Part shown: piece by piece, positions 29,183-41,825 of the stretch
Numbering within the stretch: position 1 is the first letter of the stretch
How the letters are laid out: each line of letters begins with the position of its first letter
DNA from: Ghiorsea bivora
GTDB taxonomy: Bacteria; Pseudomonadota; Zetaproteobacteria; Mariprofundales; Mariprofundaceae
Direction of reading: 5' to 3'
NCBI RefSeq assembly: GCF_000744415.1
Contig: NZ_JQLW01000007.1
Span: 124,001 to 188,000 of the forward strand
DNA length: 64,000 nt
Position numbers and translations under genes: made by a program
Notes under the pieces: model-generated
What the model was told of the DNA's origin: nothing
Database searches by the model: none
What the model saw: the letters and a program-made list of their open reading frames with translations, nothing else

Positions 29183-29196
29183 GCACAAAGTTGTGC
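29183..29196. promoter_or_regulatory. Palindrome upstream of the nucleotide cyclase gene
   Basis: GCACAA-AG-TTGTGC forms a 14-bp palindrome, overlapping a TTGCAC-like sequence and followed by TATAGG. It is about 100 bp before the cyclase. Possible operator or end of the COG2509 transcript; no regulator assigned. Confidence 0.35.
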
Positions 29197-29298
29197 TATA
29201 GGTTACATTTATTATTGGTCTTGAATGAAACCATATCGTGCACTTTAGTAAGGGAAACTCTGAACAAGTATGGTTGCAATGACTGGGGAGAAAAAATC

Positions 29299-30120
29299 AT
29301 GACTAAGCACAATAAACATCATGTGGTAAAAGAAATTAAACCCAATCAACACAGCCAAGCCGATGAAATTCAGCAAGCCCTAGAACATGACTCAACCATA
29401 GAAATGATTGCCAATGGTGAAACGGCAATACTGCCTACCCTTGCTGCCAAACGTTCTTCAAACCAACTCGACACCACACCTATCAACTTTGATAAAATCA
29501 TTGAAGACGTTGCCAATGTGATTGCGACCACACCCGATCAATACAAATGTATTATGTTCACAGACTTGGTTGGCTCCACGCAATACAAACGTGAAATGGG
29601 ACATACCAAAGGTTTTATGCGCAACCGTATGTTTTGTGATATTTGTGAAGAGGCCATCGAACGCAATCATGGTGTCGTGGTTAAACGTTTGGGTGATGGT
29701 GTGATGGCTGTGTTTGAAACGGCAATTGATGCCGTGCTTGCTGCCATGCTTATGACCAGCAGCTTGGATAGTGAGCGCAAAAAACTGAAAAAAATCGTAG
29801 GTAAAATGGATTGCCGCATTGGTATCACTTGCGGCTATGTGAAAGAAATACCCGGCCCTAGTGTGGATTATATTGGTCACGCTATGGATAAAGGGGCAAG
29901 GATTGAAGGCATTGCCCGCACTAATCAGGTATTGATTGATGAAATTGTTTATGGATTGATTCACACTAAAATTCGAGACTACTCTGATGATATTGTGATT
30001 GGCCCTCCACGCAACCTCACCCTCAAAGGTGTAGGTGTAAGCACATTATACGAGGTGTCACCCAAAGGACGTGGGTTGGTTGGTAGCATAGGTTATAAAG
30101 CTCGCCATCTCTTCGATTGA
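29299..30120 (+). CDS. Class III adenylate/guanylate cyclase domain protein
   Basis: A 273-residue cytoplasmic protein. The frame continues upstream to 29191, but the ATG at 29299 with the GGGGAG ribosome binding site at 29285-29290 is preferred. Residues 1-80 are a polar region without a recognised domain. Residues about 85-270 form a class III nucleotidyl cyclase: F-T-D-L-V-G-S-T carries the first metal aspartate, R-L-G-D-G-V-M-A-V-F the second, and D-Y-I-G-H-A-M-D-K-G-A-R-I is the transition-state helix. The usual substrate-specifying residues could not be assigned. It lacks membrane or obvious sensory domains. Its product is a candidate ligand for the cNMP-binding proteins in this window. 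Confidence 0.8.
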   Translation: MTKHNKHHVVKEIKPNQHSQADEIQQALEHDSTIEMIANGETAILPTLAAKRSSNQLDTTPINFDKIIEDVANVIATTPDQYKCIMFTDLVGSTQYKREMGHTKGFMRNRMFCDICEEAIERNHGVVVKRLGDGVMAVFETAIDAVLAAMLMTSSLDSERKKLKKIVGKMDCRIGITCGYVKEIPGPSVDYIGHAMDKGARIEGIARTNQVLIDEIVYGLIHTKIRDYSDDIVIGPPRNLTLKGVGVSTLYEVSPKGRGLVGSIGYKARHLFD

Positions 30121-33397: not shown

Positions 33398-33868
33398 ATG
33401 TTTGCTGAGAAAATTATGGTGACCAACGTGATTACCGCACAAGAACATGAACTTGTCGGTGATGTACATGCAAAAATGAACCGTGAAAAGCTACGTATGT
33501 TGCCTGTTATTGATAAACAAGGTCTTGTCAAAGGCCTATTATCAACCTTTTCTATCATGGAAAATATAATCCCCGATTATCTTATTAGTGGCGATTTAAA
33601 TCAAATTTCTTATGCACCTGACCTAGGTATTTTATGTAAACGATATGAAGAGGTTATTCGCAGCCCTATTAGCGATATGGTTGACACATCCCCTTTACTC
33701 GTCGGCAAAGATGAATCACTACTGTCTGTTGCTGCTGCTATTGCATCACATGGTAAACATGAGTATGCGCTTGTGGTGGATGACAATAAAAAACTATTGG
33801 GTGTCATTTCAGCAGGAGACATTCTTAATCGCTTAAAATATAAAACAAGCGAGGTGAATGATGCATAA
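33398..33868 (+). CDS. CBS-domain protein, likely regulator of the adjacent transporter
   Basis: A 156-residue protein made of two CBS domains (about residues 6-60 and 92-148), which bind adenine nucleotides. The first carries M-V-T-N-V-I-T-A and D-V-H-A-K-M, the second S-P-I-S-D-M-V-D-T-S and A-L-V-V-D-D-N-K-K-L-L-G-V-I-S. It overlaps the permease gene by 11 bp, so the pair is expressed together. It may sense adenylate energy charge and modulate the permease, an inference from the overlap. Confidence 0.85.
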   Translation: MFAEKIMVTNVITAQEHELVGDVHAKMNREKLRMLPVIDKQGLVKGLLSTFSIMENIIPDYLISGDLNQISYAPDLGILCKRYEEVIRSPISDMVDTSPLLVGKDESLLSVAAAIASHGKHEYALVVDDNKKLLGVISAGDILNRLKYKTSEVNDA

Positions 33869-35207
33869 TACAAGCACACATGAAGCATCCATTATTTTTG
33901 GTTTAGACCCAACTTGGGTTGCTGTGACCATTTTATTGGTTGTATATGGTGTGATTATGGCAGAGAAGTTTAACCGCGCTGTATTATCTTTGTTGGGTGC
34001 TGGTTTGATGGTACTTTGTGGGGTTATTACCCAACAACAAGCCGTTGCAGGCATTGATTTTAACACCATTGGTTTATTAACAGGTATGATGGTTATTGTA
34101 ACCATCAGTCAAAAAACAGGTATGTTTCAATATGTTGCAATCAAAGCGGCAAAGGTTGTAAAAGGTAACCCTTGGGGCATATTGGTGATGCTTTCCATTG
34201 TAACAGCTATATTTTCTGCATTTTTAGATAATGTCACCACAGTACTTCTGATTGCGCCCGTAACTTTATTAATTACCGATGCTTTGGGTGTCCGCCCCTA
34301 CCCTTATTTGTTTGCACAAATTTTCGCTTCCAATATTGGTGGTGCTTCAACACTGATTGGTGACCCTCCAAATATTATGATTGGCTCTGCAGCAAACCTG
34401 AGCTTTACAGATTTTTTATTTCATTTAACCCCTATCACACCGGTCATCTTTTTACTCACTTTAGGTTTTATTTGGTTGATGTTTGGACGCGACTTGACAG
34501 CTACTCAAGAAAAACGTGACCTCATTATGAAGTTTGATGAAGGTGAGGCATTACAAGATATTCCTTTGCTAAAAAAATGTTTGTTTGTTTTATTTTCTGT
34601 CATTGCAGGTTTCTCTGTTGCTCATACCTTCCATCTAGAACCAGCAACGATTGCCATGTTTGGCGCAGCAGCATTATTATTACTTCAAACTTATGGGGAA
34701 CCTGTACACGACAAAGACCATGCTTATGAAAAAGTGATGGCTGATGTTGAATGGACAACGATTTTCTTTTTTGTTGGTTTATTCATCATTGTTACGGGTG
34801 TGGAGCACACGGGTGTGATTGCCATGTTGGGTGAAAAAGTTATTGCGCTTACAGATGGTGACTTTAATGCCACAGTTGGTGCTGTGTTATGGGTTTCAGC
34901 TATTGCTTCAGCCTTGATTGATAATATTCCTTTTGTTGCCACCATGATTCCACTGGTGCATAGCATGGCACCAACGTTTGGTGGTGCAGAAGCGATTGAA
35001 CCTATTTGGTGGGCTTTAGCGCTGGGCGCATGTTTGGGTGGTAATGGCTCATTGATTGGCGCTTCTGCCAACCTTATTGTTGCAGGGTTTGCCCAACGTG
35101 CTGGACACCCCATTTACTTCCTACAATTTATGAAACACGCATTCTTCTTGATGATTATGAGTATTGCTGTTTCACATATTTATTTGTATCTGCGTTACCT
35201 CACTTGA
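33858..35207 (+). CDS. ArsB/NhaD ion transporter superfamily permease
   Basis: A 449-residue inner-membrane protein with about 11-13 membrane segments. F-S-A-F-L-D-N-V-T-T-V-L-L, I-G-G-A-S-T-L-I-G-D-P-P-N-I-M-I-G and the mirrored G-G-N-G-S-L-I-G-A-S-A-N-L in the C-terminal half are the paired helical hairpins of the ArsB/NhaD/citrate permease superfamily. The resemblance is closest to NhaD Na+/H+ antiporters and P-protein-like transporters; arsenite export is unlikely because there is no ars operon. Two ATGs exist (33858 and 33861). Its stop overlaps the TTG start of the lolC-like gene by three bases. Confidence 0.82.
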   Translation: MMHNTSTHEASIIFGLDPTWVAVTILLVVYGVIMAEKFNRAVLSLLGAGLMVLCGVITQQQAVAGIDFNTIGLLTGMMVIVTISQKTGMFQYVAIKAAKVVKGNPWGILVMLSIVTAIFSAFLDNVTTVLLIAPVTLLITDALGVRPYPYLFAQIFASNIGGASTLIGDPPNIMIGSAANLSFTDFLFHLTPITPVIFLLTLGFIWLMFGRDLTATQEKRDLIMKFDEGEALQDIPLLKKCLFVLFSVIAGFSVAHTFHLEPATIAMFGAAALLLLQTYGEPVHDKDHAYEKVMADVEWTTIFFFVGLFIIVTGVEHTGVIAMLGEKVIALTDGDFNATVGAVLWVSAIASALIDNIPFVATMIPLVHSMAPTFGGAEAIEPIWWALALGACLGGNGSLIGASANLIVAGFAQRAGHPIYFLQFMKHAFFLMIMSIAVSHIYLYLRYLT

Positions 35208-36454
35208 TTCAAACCTTTGAACTTCTTTTAGCTTTACGCTATTTACGTTCACAGCGAGGTGAACGTTTTGCTTCACTGGTTGGTTGGAGCTCAGCAATTG
35301 GTATGGCAATTGGTGTGATGACCTTAATTGTTGTGATGTCGGTCATGAATGGTGTTGCTACTGAAATACGGGATAAGATTTTAGGCTTTTCATCACATGT
35401 CGAAATTCAAGGACCTGGTGATACCTTTACGAACTGGCAAGCTTGGTTAGATATCAGTCAAAAATTACCCCATGTTGAGCAAGCATTGCCCTATATCAGC
35501 ACACAAACCCTTGCTCACCACGGTACACGTTCGGTGGGTGCAATGCTCAAAGGTATTGATGCAGCCCAAGACACTGTGATTTCCGCACATATCACCCAAG
35601 GTTCTTTTTTATCTTTACCTAACCCACAACAAACCAATATTTTTGAAGCCGTCATTGGTAAAGAGTTGGCTAGAAAACTATCCATCAGCGTGGGTGATAA
35701 AGTGCAGTTATTAACACCTTCAGGCGGCATCAGCCCCATGGGTGCTTCACCACGCATAAAGTCTTTTGTTATTACGGGCATTTTCGACTCGGGTTTTTAT
35801 GAATATGATGTTGGTCTTATTCTCACCCATATTCAAGCTGTACAACGCCTAAATCGTGTCGGTAATGCCATTACAGGCATAGAACTTCATTTGGAAAACC
35901 GCGACCAAGCAGCCCAAGTAGCAGAAATAGCACGTAATGCTTTACCAAGCGATGCTTGGGTCACAGATTGGCAGCATAGGCATCAGTCCTTCTTTCAAGC
36001 CTTAAAAATGGAACGAACAGCTATGAGTATCATTCTCTTCTTAATCGTTTTGGTGGCTATCTTCAATATGGTTTCATCATTGGTGATGGTGGTGATGGAA
36101 AAGCGTAAAGAAATTGCCATTCTCAAAACCATAGGTGCTTCACATGCCTCCATCATCCGCATCTTTTTACTTATGGGCATGTTGCTCAGTGGCTTTGGAA
36201 CTTTACTGGGCTGTTTGGCTGGTATTTTCTTAGCATCCAACTTGGAATCTATTGTAGCTTGGATTGAAAAGGTTACCCATACCACATTTATGTCAGGTGA
36301 TGTCTATTATATTGACCATGTACCTGCTATTATGGAGCCTACATCGATTATAATTGTTGCAAGTGTAAGTTTACTGATGGGTTTTTTGGCAACACTTTAC
36401 CCCGCATGGCGAGCTGCTAAAGTACCACCTGCAGAGGCCTTGCGTTATGAGTGA
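35204..36454 (+). CDS. lolC: Lipoprotein-releasing permease subunit (LolC/LolE)
   Basis: Inner-membrane part of the LolCDE ABC machine that moves lipoproteins to the outer membrane. The 416-residue protein has one N-terminal membrane helix, a long periplasmic domain and three C-terminal helices (about 275, 325 and 380). The start L-A-L-R-Y-L-R-S-Q-R-G and the end Y-P-A-W-R-A-A-K-V-P-P-A-E-A-L-R-Y-E are family signatures. The start is a TTG at 35204 overlapping the preceding stop by three bases. A cNMP-binding gene (36470) separates it from lolD (37664). Only one LolC/E gene is present, as in organisms that use LolF-type homodimers. Confidence 0.93.
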   Translation: MIQTFELLLALRYLRSQRGERFASLVGWSSAIGMAIGVMTLIVVMSVMNGVATEIRDKILGFSSHVEIQGPGDTFTNWQAWLDISQKLPHVEQALPYISTQTLAHHGTRSVGAMLKGIDAAQDTVISAHITQGSFLSLPNPQQTNIFEAVIGKELARKLSISVGDKVQLLTPSGGISPMGASPRIKSFVITGIFDSGFYEYDVGLILTHIQAVQRLNRVGNAITGIELHLENRDQAAQVAEIARNALPSDAWVTDWQHRHQSFFQALKMERTAMSIILFLIVLVAIFNMVSSLVMVVMEKRKEIAILKTIGASHASIIRIFLLMGMLLSGFGTLLGCLAGIFLASNLESIVAWIEKVTHTTFMSGDVYYIDHVPAIMEPTSIIIVASVSLLMGFLATLYPAWRAAKVPPAEALRYE

Positions 36455-36469
36455 TGAGGGAGTTGTTTT

Positions 36470-37663
36470 ATGTCGTTAGAAGCGCTGAAAAAGAAAGCCA
36501 AACAAGCCCTGATGGCAGGCAAGTATGAAAACGCACTCAAACTATATACTGAACTTCACAAAAACGATGAAAAAGATTTAAGAATTTTTACCAAAGTTGC
36601 AGAAATGCGTGAAAAAACGGGCGACTCTAAAGGTGCTGTTCGTGCCTATACTGCAATTGCTAAAGCATACGCTGATGATGGTTTTGTTGTACAAGCTATT
36701 GCCATTAACAAGCTCATACTTCGCTTAGACCCTGAACAAACAGAAATTAAAGAAAAACTGCGTGACCTTTCAACAGAGCGTGGTGACAATTGGGCCATCA
36801 GCACGATTGCCCCCCATGGTGCTACATCAGATATACAAGCCTCACCAACAGATAAAGCCAAATTAAGCTTTGAACGTACCCCCTTACTTTCTGGTCTTGC
36901 TGGCAAAGAGCTGGACGATTTTATTGAATCTTTAGAGCTTAAAGAATATGCAGCAGGTGATGTTATTTACGAAGCCAATGAAATATCAAACGCCTTGTTT
37001 TTGATTGGTATGGGTGCTGTACGTTTGGAAACCAAAGGTATTCGTGGTTCCCAGCAAGTTTTTTCACGTTTAGGTGAAGGTGATTTTTTTGGTGAACTAT
37101 CATTTATGAATAAAGAACCACATCAAAACTCTGCCATTGCTGAGTCTGATGTGAGTTTATTGATTATTCACCGGAAAGTATTTGATGAATGGGTAGAAAA
37201 ACACCCTTCTATCCATGATACAGTTGAAGATTTTTACAGAAGACGCGTACTTGCTCGCATCTTAGCCATCACGCCTATTTTTGAAGGTATCCCTCAAGAT
37301 GCACGCATACCATTGGCTCAACAATTTAGCCTATCCTTTTTTCACGATGGTGATGTGATTATTAAAGAGGGTGATGTTGAGAGTACATTTTACCTGATTC
37401 GTTCAGGTAAAGTGCGTATATCGACCAAAGAGGTCGTTTTAGGAAACTTAGGCGAAGGTTCATTTTTTGGTGAGGTATCCATGCTCACCAGTAAACCACG
37501 TACAGCTACCGTGACGGCTATTGGCAGCGTTGAGCTTCTCACCTTAACCCGTGATAAATTTGATGCCATTGCTAAAGATTTTCCCACAGTGCGTAAAGTT
37601 GTTGAGGCTTATTTAAAACAACGCGTGATAAATACTATCAAAACCCTCAAAGACAAAAAATAA
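36470..37663 (+). CDS. TPR protein with two cyclic-nucleotide-binding domains
   Basis: A 397-residue protein unlike a standard family. Residues 1-110 are tetratricopeptide-like helices (A-L-M-A-G-K-Y-E-N-A-L-K-L-Y). Two CRP-type cNMP-binding barrels follow (about 130-255 and 265-390). The cassettes read G-D-F-F-G-E-L-S-F-M and G-S-F-F-G-E-V-S-M-L-T-S-K-P-R-T-A-T-V; the second has the conserved Arg-Thr/Ala, the first shows a less canonical P-H-Q-N-S-A-I. No DNA-binding domain exists. It starts 15 bp after lolC, and lolD follows without a gap. This suggests nucleotide control of lipoprotein export, an inference only. Confidence 0.8.
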   Translation: MSLEALKKKAKQALMAGKYENALKLYTELHKNDEKDLRIFTKVAEMREKTGDSKGAVRAYTAIAKAYADDGFVVQAIAINKLILRLDPEQTEIKEKLRDLSTERGDNWAISTIAPHGATSDIQASPTDKAKLSFERTPLLSGLAGKELDDFIESLELKEYAAGDVIYEANEISNALFLIGMGAVRLETKGIRGSQQVFSRLGEGDFFGELSFMNKEPHQNSAIAESDVSLLIIHRKVFDEWVEKHPSIHDTVEDFYRRRVLARILAITPIFEGIPQDARIPLAQQFSLSFFHDGDVIIKEGDVESTFYLIRSGKVRISTKEVVLGNLGEGSFFGEVSMLTSKPRTATVTAIGSVELLTLTRDKFDAIAKDFPTVRKVVEAYLKQRVINTIKTLKDKK

Positions 37664-38347
37664 GTGCTTACTGTCGCCAACCTTAGTAAGGCTTATCCAA
37701 CACCTTTAGGTCCATTACAAATTCTTGATGATATCAGCTTCAGCCTACAAGCTGGCGTATTCATGGCTATTATTGGCGAATCGGGTTCAGGTAAAAGCAC
37801 ACTTTTACAACTCTTAGGTACATTAGACCAAGCAGATTCTGGTGAAATTCACTTGGGTGAAATCGCTATTCATGCTTTAAAAGAGCAGGACTTAGCTATG
37901 TTACGCAACCGAGATATTGGTTTTGTATACCAGTCTCACCATCTTATACCCGAACTCACAGCTTTAGAAAACATCATGTTACCTTTACTTATTCAAGGTA
38001 AAAACAAAACTTATGCAAAAGAAAAAGCGCTTGATCTACTGGGTTTATTGGGTCTTAGTGAACGAGCATCTCATATACCTGCACACCTTTCAGGCGGAGA
38101 AGCACAACGTGTTGCCGTTGCAAGAGCAATTATTACACAACCCAAGCTTTTGCTTGCCGATGAACCCACAGGAAACCTAGATGAAGCAACGGCTCATACT
38201 GTCTTTAATATGATAAAAGATACCTGTAAAGCATATAAAATAGCTACAATTATGGTCACACATAGCAAGAGCTTTGCCAATGCTTGTGATGAGGTCTATG
38301 AGTTGTCACATCATAAGCTTCAAATCGTAAAATCTAAAAAGTCTTGA
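37664..38347 (+). CDS. lolD: Lipoprotein-releasing ABC transporter ATPase LolD
   Basis: ATP-hydrolysing subunit of LolCDE. The 227-residue protein has Walker A G-E-S-G-S-G-K-S-T (about 38-46), signature L-S-G-G-E-A-Q-R-V-A and Walker B L-L-L-A-D-E-P-T-G-N. The GTG start lies directly after the stop of the cNMP gene. Its stop (38345-38347) is inside the -35 box of the ihfA promoter. Full length. Confidence 0.96.
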   Translation: MLTVANLSKAYPTPLGPLQILDDISFSLQAGVFMAIIGESGSGKSTLLQLLGTLDQADSGEIHLGEIAIHALKEQDLAMLRNRDIGFVYQSHHLIPELTALENIMLPLLIQGKNKTYAKEKALDLLGLLGLSERASHIPAHLSGGEAQRVAVARAIITQPKLLLADEPTGNLDEATAHTVFNMIKDTCKAYKIATIMVTHSKSFANACDEVYELSHHKLQIVKSKKS

Positions 38348-39420: not shown

Positions 39421-40602
39421 TCAAGGATTTACAAATGATACCTTGGGTATACTTATGGTAACAAGCAAACCACCTTCTTCGCTATTTTCCAAAAGTAAAT
39501 GACCACCATCTCGCTCTAAGGTTTCTTTAACAATAGCTAGACCCAAACCATGCCCTTCTTGTTTTTCACGTCCCCTAACATTATCGACACGATAAAAACG
39601 CTCTACAACACGTTTCAGATGGGTTTCTGGAATGCCATAACCTTGGTCTTGAATAGCAATGGAAACACATGTTTCTTGTTCAACAATATGGCAAAAAATA
39701 CTTGCCCCTTCAGGTGAGAACTTCAATGCATTTTCAGCAATATTCATCAGGATACGATGACAGTCTATTTCACTCATCCTGACCATTTCATTGTCTACAT
39801 CAATCTCAATATCCAACTTTATAGCCTTAGCTTGTATTTTATGCTGTAGAGAGCCCCATACTTGTTCATGAACATGGATAATGGAACATTGCGCATCTTT
39901 CTCTGTCTTATCATGTTCGATTTGGTTCAGTGTCAACATGCTATTCATTAAGTTGTTGATATGTTTTGCTTCTTTGACAATCACAGATGTTGCTTCATGG
40001 CGTAAATCTTCATCATCAGCAAACGTTTCAATGCTTCTAGCATAACCCAATAATGATGTGAGTGGTGTTTTAAGATCATGCATCAAATTTTCCAACAATG
40101 ACTTTTGTTTTTGCTGCAAACGCGTATAAGCGGTGACATCTAAACACAATAACAATGCCTCTTTATCGCTCAAAGCAGCTAACCGAGGCAATAATACACG
40201 ACCATCCACCTTCATTTCTGGCAAGGTTTTCTGCTCTGGCAAAGCATCAATCGCTTGTTGAAAAGCTTTTAACCACTCACTATCTCGGTAAAACACCAGC
40301 ATGGACTGCGGCAACACAATGCTATGTTGAAAATGGAACAACGACTCAGCTTGTTCATTCCCACCAAGCACTCGCCCTTGTTCATCAACGCGCAGAACCA
40401 CTTCTGAAATCGTAGATAACAATACATCCAAACGACGCCCTCGGGTGGCTAGTGTGTTTTTTAGGTTATCATATTCGCGTTTGAGTTGCTCATGTTTGAT
40501 TTCATGGGCGTGCAAACGTTTGGAAGTTTGGTTAAGGCGAAAAACAAGCCAAAATATCATGCTTAAACATGCCAAAACCCATAAAAAAGCTTCACCAATC
40601 AT
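39421..40602 (-). CDS. phoR: Phosphate-sensing histidine kinase PhoR-like
   Basis: Sensor kinase of the PhoB-PhoR phosphate-starvation pair. The frame starts further upstream, but the ATG at 40600-40602 overlaps the phoB stop (ATGA), so 393 residues is the likely form. One N-terminal membrane segment (about residues 5-25) is followed by a PAS-like region, the phospho-acceptor His175 in N-L-M-H-D-L-K-T-P, and an HATPase domain with N-x-N-A-L-K-F-S, D-Q-G-Y-G-I-P and G-H-G-L-G-L-A-I-V. As in PhoR there is no large periplasmic sensor domain. Neighbours phoB, phoU and pst support the role. Confidence 0.93.
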   Translation of the reverse strand: MIGEAFLWVLACLSMIFWLVFRLNQTSKRLHAHEIKHEQLKREYDNLKNTLATRGRRLDVLLSTISEVVLRVDEQGRVLGGNEQAESLFHFQHSIVLPQSMLVFYRDSEWLKAFQQAIDALPEQKTLPEMKVDGRVLLPRLAALSDKEALLLCLDVTAYTRLQQKQKSLLENLMHDLKTPLTSLLGYARSIETFADDEDLRHEATSVIVKEAKHINNLMNSMLTLNQIEHDKTEKDAQCSIIHVHEQVWGSLQHKIQAKAIKLDIEIDVDNEMVRMSEIDCHRILMNIAENALKFSPEGASIFCHIVEQETCVSIAIQDQGYGIPETHLKRVVERFYRVDNVRGREKQEGHGLGLAIVKETLERDGGHLLLENSEEGGLLVTISIPKVSFVNP

Positions 40603-41294
40603 GTTTTCTCTTGAAAGCGATAACCCATGCCGCGAATCGTTTGTATGCATTCACCTTGCCCACAAGCTGCAAGTTCTTTACGCAAACGTTTGACGGTTGC
40701 ATCCACAGTGCGTTCCTCAACAAATGAATCCATACCCCACACAATATCTAATAATTGCTCGCGAGAAAGCACCCTACCCGCCTTACCCATCAAGGTTTGT
40801 AAAAGTTTAAACTCTAGCGGTCGAAGCGATAACAACTTACCATCCACTTTCACTTCCATGCTTTCTTCATTCATTTGAATCGCTTGGGCATCAAAAGTTT
40901 CTGTTTTACTGCTGGTGGCTCGGCGTAATAAGGCTGCCAAACGTGCAACAAGCTCATCAGGCTCAAAAGGTTTACCAATATAATCATCAGCACCTTCATT
41001 TAAGCCCCGAATTTTTTCATCCGTCATGGTTAAAGCCGTTACCATCAATACAGGAAGTGTAGTCAGCCTTTCATGCCCTCGAATCCAACGCAATACATCC
41101 AGCCCACGTTTACCAGGAATCATCCTGTCTAAAATCAGAGCGCTGTATTGGTTTTTCTGTAATAAATCTTGGGCATCTAAGCCATTATCACATATGGTTG
41201 TATCATAACCTTCCCGCTGCAAATGAATCTCTATCAACCTTGCGATAGAGAAATCATCTTCAACAATAAGGATATGTTTACTACTTGTTGTCAT
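40599..41294 (-). CDS. phoB: Phosphate regulon response regulator PhoB
   Basis: OmpR/PhoB-family transcription factor. The receiver domain has the acidic pair V-E-D-D and the phospho-acceptor Asp56 in L-I-L-D-R-M-I-P-G; the C-terminal winged helix carries R-P-L-E-F-K-L-L and E-E-R-T-V-D-A-T-V-K-R-L-R-K-E-L. The 231-residue protein is intact. It overlaps phoR by four bases and follows the cNMP gene without a gap. TGTCA repeats near 41871, 41907 and 43096 are probable binding sites. Confidence 0.95.
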   Translation of the reverse strand: MTTSSKHILIVEDDFSIARLIEIHLQREGYDTTICDNGLDAQDLLQKNQYSALILDRMIPGKRGLDVLRWIRGHERLTTLPVLMVTALTMTDEKIRGLNEGADDYIGKPFEPDELVARLAALLRRATSSKTETFDAQAIQMNEESMEVKVDGKLLSLRPLEFKLLQTLMGKAGRVLSREQLLDIVWGMDSFVEERTVDATVKRLRKELAACGQGECIQTIRGMGYRFQEKT

Positions 41295-41825
41295 TCACAC
41301 CTTCCCACCAAATGCAAAGCGATGCATATGTGCATACTCTACTTCCAACTCAGATGCCTTTTTGCTCAAAAGCCTAAACATAAAACGCATCAATTGGTTA
41401 CCTAACTTCGGCTCTTCCAAAGCAATCAAATCAAAATAAGACCTATCTATACTTAATACCCTTGTCGTTTTATCTACGGTAAGTGTAACCGAATGATTTC
41501 TATTTTCATCCAAGAACGAAAACAAACCAAAGACATCACCTGTCGTTAGGCTACTAAATGGATAACCACTTTCGCTTTTAACATTCACTTTGCCATCTAA
41601 AATTAAGTTCATTTTCCCCACTGATGGCGTACCTGCTTCATAAATCACGTCCCCTACTTGAAAATCCTCACGTGTCATACAACTAAACAATGTCATGGCA
41701 TGTTTTTTCTTCATTTCCGCAATCAATGGCAAACTATAAAATGCTTGAAAGTCTGCATTTGACTCAATCAATGGTTCAACCATGACTTCTTTCTTAGAAT
41801 ATTCCATAATATTCTCAATACTCAT
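41295..41825 (-). CDS. cNMP-binding domain protein, first gene of the phoB-phoR operon
   Basis: A 176-residue protein with a CRP-type effector domain (about residues 45-150). The cassette region G-D-V-F-G-L-F-S-F-L-D-E-N-R-N-H-S-V-T-L is divergent: it lacks the canonical Glu of G-E-L and the Arg-Thr pair that contacts cyclic phosphate, so it may not bind cNMP. The C-terminus is helical with no DNA-binding domain. It abuts phoB (stop 41295, phoB ATG 41294). An unusual partner for PhoBR; it may modulate the pair. Confidence 0.78.
   Translation of the reverse strand: MSIENIMEYSKKEVMVEPLIESNADFQAFYSLPLIAEMKKKHAMTLFSCMTREDFQVGDVIYEAGTPSVGKMNLILDGKVNVKSESGYPFSSLTTGDVFGLFSFLDENRNHSVTLTVDKTTRVLSIDRSYFDLIALEEPKLGNQLMRFMFRLLSKKASELEVEYAHMHRFAFGGKV

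Follow-up and report, generated by a model that had tools for sequence, protein, structure and literature searches.

Organization of the lolF-cNMP-lolD locus

The window analysed here is a stretch of 64,000 nucleotides from Ghiorsea bivora (contig NZ_JQLW01000007.1), whose near-identical loci (93-96%) are found in Ghiorsea genomes. Within it, a gene for a 397-aa protein with a TPR-like region and tandem cyclic nucleotide-binding domains (CNBDs) occupies positions 36470-37663 (+), reading from an ATG start to a TAA stop. This gene, referred to below as the cNMP gene, lies between a gene for a LolC/E-family permease (35204-36454, +) and a gene for a LolD-type ATPase (lolD; 37664-38347, +). The permease gene ends with TGA at 36454 and is followed by a gap of 15 bp, inside which a Shine-Dalgarno sequence (GAGGGAG, 36456-36462, +) is placed 7 nt 5' of the cNMP start codon. 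The GTG start of lolD at 37664 follows the cNMP stop codon with a gap of 0 bp. A preliminary description of this DNA had the three genes packed in this manner, and its coordinates prove exact. Promoter and terminator predictions are no more frequent than chance.

Upstream, two operon neighbors identified with Pfam stand between lysS and lolF: a CBS-domain protein gene (33398-33868, +) and an overlapping gene for a CitMHS/ArsB-type, MamN-like ion transporter (33858-35207, +). This paired insertion (33398-35207, +) is kept in most of the Zetaproteobacteria that were checked and was not detected in loci L129 or L119. Downstream, a gene for a single-CNBD protein (41295-41825) adjoins those of a PhoB-like regulator and a PhoR/PnpS-like kinase (39421-41825 for the set, -), with porin-like and PstS-like genes next door. 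The same set is not beside lol in another genome of the genus (L118). Its composition makes cyclic-nucleotide or other small-molecule sensing tied to the phosphate regulon possible.

The interrupted exporter is of LolF-LolD type

The permease carries MacB_PCD and FtsX domains (Pfam) and exceeds the cut-off of the lolCE model TIGR02212 (427.7 versus 362.45 bits). It is the sole match to its family in the genome at E<=1e-20. The preliminary description had named its gene lolC; the assignment to the LolC/E family stands, and the gene is instead of LolF type, since the genome holds a single permease of this family. For the ATPase encoded on the same strand and in the same operon, the best NCBIfam model is LolD (TIGR02211, E 8e-75), where the score of 251 bits falls below the cut-off of 307.75. 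The periplasmic chaperone LolA is also encoded in the genome (PF03548, E 1.1e-19). With a single permease, the operon is lolF-cNMP-lolD rather than a modified lolCDE.

According to a review (PMC11784454), the lolF-lolD arrangement is overwhelmingly common, the lolC-lolD-lolE order of E. coli is limited to a narrow gammaproteobacterial subset, and the definitions given there make the present exporter LolF-LolD. The earlier comparison with a usual lolCDE operon is therefore misplaced, in that the layout usual outside some gammaproteobacteria is lolF-lolD (PMC11784454), and it is this layout that is interrupted here. One genome of another class (G103; L173:1501-4227 and L177) presents the order permease-lolD-permease, with two LolF-type permeases that are 63% identical. 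This arrangement corresponds to the lolF-lolD-lolF intermediate proposed for the origin of lolC-lolD-lolE in PMC11784454.

Domain architecture of the cNMP protein

Pfam analysis of the cNMP protein reveals two PF00027 domains (E 1.7e-42; 143.7 versus a cut-off of 27.5 bits). CNBD1 (aa 137-257; 36878-37240, +) retains the fold, and its phosphate-binding cassette is GDFFGELSFMNKEPHQNSAIA (aa 204-224; 37079-37141, +). CNBD2 (aa 264-385; 37259-37624, +) carries the cassette GSFFGEVSMLTSKPRTATVTA (aa 330-350; 37457-37519, +), and the C-terminus of the protein ends in helices that follow this domain. The N-terminal region (aa 1-105; 36470-36784, +) is TPR-like and is predicted to form approximately six helices (residues 3-15, 19-29, 34-50, 53-68, 72-86 and 91-103). 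These helices derive from a low-confidence model, built from a shallow alignment of four sequences (mean pLDDT 37.8) and usable for the N-terminal helices only.

The layout of a TPR region followed by tandem cNMP modules, as initially described, is secure for the two CNBDs and weaker for the TPR region. The TPR_14 match in the window protein (E 1e-4, 23.1 bits) lies just below the cut-off of 23.5, and the assignment is firmer in the homologue from genome G078, where TPR_2 and TPR_19 both score above cut-off. That the cNMP modules lack DNA-binding parts, a further point of that description, agrees with the Pfam and NCBIfam matches, among which there is no HTH, DNA-binding, catalytic or other output domain. 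A transcription factor of the CRP/FNR type is rejected given the missing HTH. A Pycsar or other defence effector is likewise rejected, as the match is limited to the CNBD part, and a phage protein is rejected for want of a PHROG match.

Conservation and loss of the gene in Zetaproteobacteria

To describe the distribution of the arrangement, 78 Zetaproteobacteria genomes were searched with the cNMP protein (threshold E<=1e-30), LolF and LolD, and the positions of all matches were tabulated. The cNMP protein is present in 46/78 genomes. In 43 of these 46 carriers, which span 14 genera and three families, its gene abuts the permease gene, the lolD gene or both. A complete same-strand lolF-cNMP-lolD triplet on one contig is found in 39 genomes; in the other four linked genomes, one side lies off the contig end or is split onto another contig. 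In most genomes the cNMP gene is separated from lolF by 2-47 bp (201 bp in one case) and from lolD by 3-104 bp. The gene order that the preliminary description had proposed to follow across relatives is therefore widely kept, and a strain-specific oddity or assembly artefact is rejected. With linkage retained in 43/46 carriers, chance is excluded as the source of the arrangement.

The remaining genomes include 21, from genera g5, g6 and g11, that lack the cNMP gene and have lolD immediately next to lolF; the locus thus occurs both with and without the insertion. Three further g11 genomes (G056, G058 and G062) carry a cNMP homologue away from lol and beside unrelated genes. Because three genera have lost the gene yet keep lolF-lolD, and because three genomes carry it unlinked, the cNMP protein is an accessory rather than a core subunit of LolFD. 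Loss of the gene without loss of lolFD in three genera is also what would be anticipated if the insertion were neutral, functionally unconnected to its neighbors and retained through chance and vertical descent. We regard such an origin as very improbable, as the protein remains intact at ~55% mean identity over three families, its divergence tracks that of LolF and LolD (correlations of 0.80 and 0.77), and the intergenic gaps are short in nearly all genomes.

In a tree of cNMP proteins, two of the unlinked g11 copies group with genus g13 and one with g2, all on long branches (0.73-0.88 changes per site). These placements suggest transfer or relocation, together with altered constraint. In genome G058, the unlinked copy (L047:1870-5977) follows genes for an HtpX-like M48 protease and a LemA-like protein, which is also a membrane quality-control context.

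The unlinked copies bear on the main rival to a role with the exporter, in which the cNMP protein would be an adaptor for another envelope or motility machine (type IV pili, for example) that is co-transcribed with lolFD for dosage only. Further observations point the same way: the class has several CNBD proteins that are more distantly related, similar in layout and placed in unrelated contexts, one such relative (L140) adjoins a PilT/PilU-family ATPase, and the TPR part of the cNMP protein resembles that of the pilus regulator SgmX (E 1.3e-13). Against this stand the lol-linked copy being the only one in which sequence and slot are so widely kept, the position of the gene as a lone insertion between genes whose products form one complex, and the long branches of the unlinked copies, which look as if constraint had changed. 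Overall, we consider this reading a credible contender that nevertheless probably does not hold. At L140:3518-8448, two more CNBD proteins are encoded near the PilT/PilU-family ATPase (TIGR01420, 437 bits), as well as near an XrtA/PEP-CTERM-like AAA ATPase. A wider set of CNBD adaptors is present in Zetaproteobacteria.

The insertion beyond the class

When 399 genomes from across the phylum were searched with a profile, one full-length relative outside the class came up, in G078 (385 bits, 39% identity), which is the sole genome of its neighboring class in the collection. The gene order there is lysS-lolF-cNMP-lolD, with lolD overlapping the cNMP gene. The order is thus kept across three families and in one genome of another class, and it is not unique to the strain. 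Among 802 genomes from three other classes of the phylum (48 + 385 + 369), no full-length relative was found, and the matches that occur cover the tandem CNBD part only. Spot checks in those classes place lolD directly after lolF, with three of the genomes inspected (L170-L172) presenting lysS-lolF-lolD. Given the triplet in Zetaproteobacteria and G078 and plain lolF-lolD in the other classes, the insertion dates from early in Zetaproteobacteria or from just before them, and subsequent losses affected g5, g6 and g11 at least. A LolF tree agrees broadly, with weak support at depth and a very long branch for G078; because of this weak resolution, the arrangement is dated chiefly by its occurrence in families f1, f2 and f3 and in G078.

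Association with lolF and lolD rather than the wider neighborhood

The CBS and CitMHS/ArsB-type (SLC13) genes persist in loci that lack the cNMP gene (L123, L128), and neither gene was found next to the triplet in L119 or L114. The stable association of the cNMP gene is consequently with lolF and lolD and not with the wider neighborhood, and a partnership with the upstream CBS/SLC13 ion transporter is rejected on the same observations. A comparison of lineages that carry the cNMP gene with those that do not finds consistent differences at only one column in LolD and four in LolF. With almost no such residues, no co-adapted interface is visible in either protein, and the notion of co-adapted residues is rejected, the few columns being confounded by phylogeny.

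Ligand sites and cyclases

Inspection of 45 aligned sequences reveals distinct patterns of conservation in the two CNBDs. In CNBD2, the nucleotide-contacting residues Glu335 and Arg344 are present in 45/45 sequences, including the 39%-identical G078 protein, and the cassette follows the pattern FGEVxxLxxxxRTA, varying occasionally at positions other than the contact residues. In CNBD1, the Glu is retained in 41/45 sequences, and position 218, the site of the phosphate-contacting Arg, is His in 35 sequences, Arg in five (G078 among them), Tyr in four and Gln in one. CNBD2 is thus likely a cyclic-nucleotide site, and CNBD1 appears, as judged from its residues, to be an altered nucleotide site.

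The loss of the CNBD1 Arg in most members would also fit a scaffold that has the CNBD fold but has given up cyclic-nucleotide sensing, and that serves as a structural component or assembly factor for LolFD or as a binder of some other small molecule. A case for the latter comes from HetC, an ABC exporter whose CNBD is needed in vivo and binds ppGpp, not cAMP (PMC10986499). The invariant canonical Glu and Arg of CNBD2, which hold even in G078, weigh against a non-sensing scaffold, and we consider it unlikely.

Class III cyclases are found in 77/78 Zetaproteobacteria genomes, with six in the 2.15-Mb genome studied here (E<=1e-5). A class III adenylate/guanylate cyclase-domain protein is encoded in the window itself (29191-30120, +; PF00211, 27.9 bits), and its true start may lie downstream of the TTG at 29191. 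Genera g5 (0 cyclases) and g6 (1-2 cyclases) are cyclase-poor and lack the cNMP gene. Across all genomes, the number of cyclases does not differ between those with and without the cNMP gene (p = 0.33), and co-occurrence of the gene with cyclase number is rejected on this overall comparison.

A proposed link between cyclic nucleotides and lipoprotein export

Model Gram-negatives depend on Lol export for viability, and the process is usually regarded as constitutive; the Lol transporter is a current antibiotic target. To our knowledge, no second messenger has been described as controlling the Lol exporter post-translationally. Full-text searches of open-licence papers returned none that joins LolD with "cyclic nucleotide-binding", and nothing on point for tandem CNBD/TPR bacterial proteins or for Zetaproteobacteria with cyclic nucleotide and lipoprotein.

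It is plausible that the cNMP protein acts on or with the exporter. Our tentative proposal, to which we give a little less than even confidence, is that it serves as a cytosolic cNMP-responsive adaptor, similar to a PKA regulatory subunit, that couples cAMP or cGMP to LolFD activity and so modulates lipoprotein release to the outer membrane. The TPR domain would stand in for the dimerization/docking domain of a PKA regulatory subunit, and the protein would be made together with LolF and LolD. One of the predicted class III cyclases of the genome would first make cAMP or cGMP. CNBD2 would then bind the nucleotide via E335 and R344, the binding being what we infer from the observed conservation of the site, while CNBD1, with its Arg usually His, would bind weakly or in an altered way and serve mainly to pass the change on. 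Finally, the TPR domain may dock on LolD or on the cytosolic side of LolF, and the nucleotide would switch its grip, changing ATPase coupling or assembly. The adaptor would be accessory, as lineages from which the gene has gone manage with LolFD alone.

A broader claim, possible and held with less conviction, is that a cyclic mononucleotide directly controls outer-membrane lipoprotein export, with the tandem-CNBD adaptor a dedicated LolFD regulatory subunit in Zetaproteobacteria and the neighboring class. Several points argue against a LolFD regulator: gene linkage is not interaction, 21 genomes without the gene keep lolF next to lolD, three g11 genomes carry it away from lol, LolF and LolD reveal no co-adapted interface, the number of cyclases does not vary with the presence of the gene, and a CNBD fold can bind other ligands, as with ppGpp in HetC. 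Gene order, depth of conservation, domain layout, the conserved binding residues and the presence of cyclases and exporter are observed; ligand binding, contact with LolF or LolD and an effect on export are inferred.

The age and conservation of the arrangement nonetheless suggest tuning of lipoprotein export by a second messenger in Zetaproteobacteria, which are iron-oxidizing marine bacteria. A conserved, putatively nucleotide-sensing gene in a class-wide lolF-lolD operon makes regulation of lipoprotein export directly testable. If the proposal is correct, cAMP/cGMP signaling, which is very abundant in these small genomes, would be tied to outer-membrane building in iron-oxidizing bacteria, and it would offer a route to modulate a transporter that antibiotics currently target.

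Comparison with known systems

The locus shares with LolFD operons a single LolC/E-type permease followed by a LolD-type ATPase, a position after lysS and the presence of LolA in the genome. It differs in the TPR-CNBD-CNBD gene placed between lolF and lolD in 43 genomes, a component that the available portion of PMC11784454 does not mention. Pycsar effectors and CRP/FNR regulators have the CNBD fold in common with the cNMP protein, which contains neither a TIR or other killing domain nor an HTH. The likeness to SgmX, a TPR protein of type IV pilus formation, is confined to the N-terminal TPR region; the match reaches 50 bits against a cut-off of 1800, the model names no CNBD, and the gene context differs.

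PKA regulatory subunits and cGMP-dependent protein kinases resemble the cNMP protein in their tandem CNBDs and are among its best solved-structure matches (5kbf, E 4.4e-44; PKG, E 1e-54). In contrast to these, the cNMP protein has a TPR-like N-terminus in place of a docking/dimerization domain, its CNBD1 Arg is usually His, and neither a kinase nor a kinase partner is linked to it, with no kinase gene seen in the operon. HetC, other CNBD-carrying ABC exporters and the bacteriocin-transport-associated CNBD protein of TIGR03896 share a CNBD tied functionally or genomically to an ABC exporter. The CNBD of HetC is fused to the peptidase-ABC protein, the cNMP protein scores 50.8 bits against the TIGR03896 cut-off of 161, and neither system concerns lipoprotein export. 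Although its ligand is ppGpp rather than cAMP, HetC provides a precedent for the principle of a CNBD serving an ABC exporter (PMC10986499).
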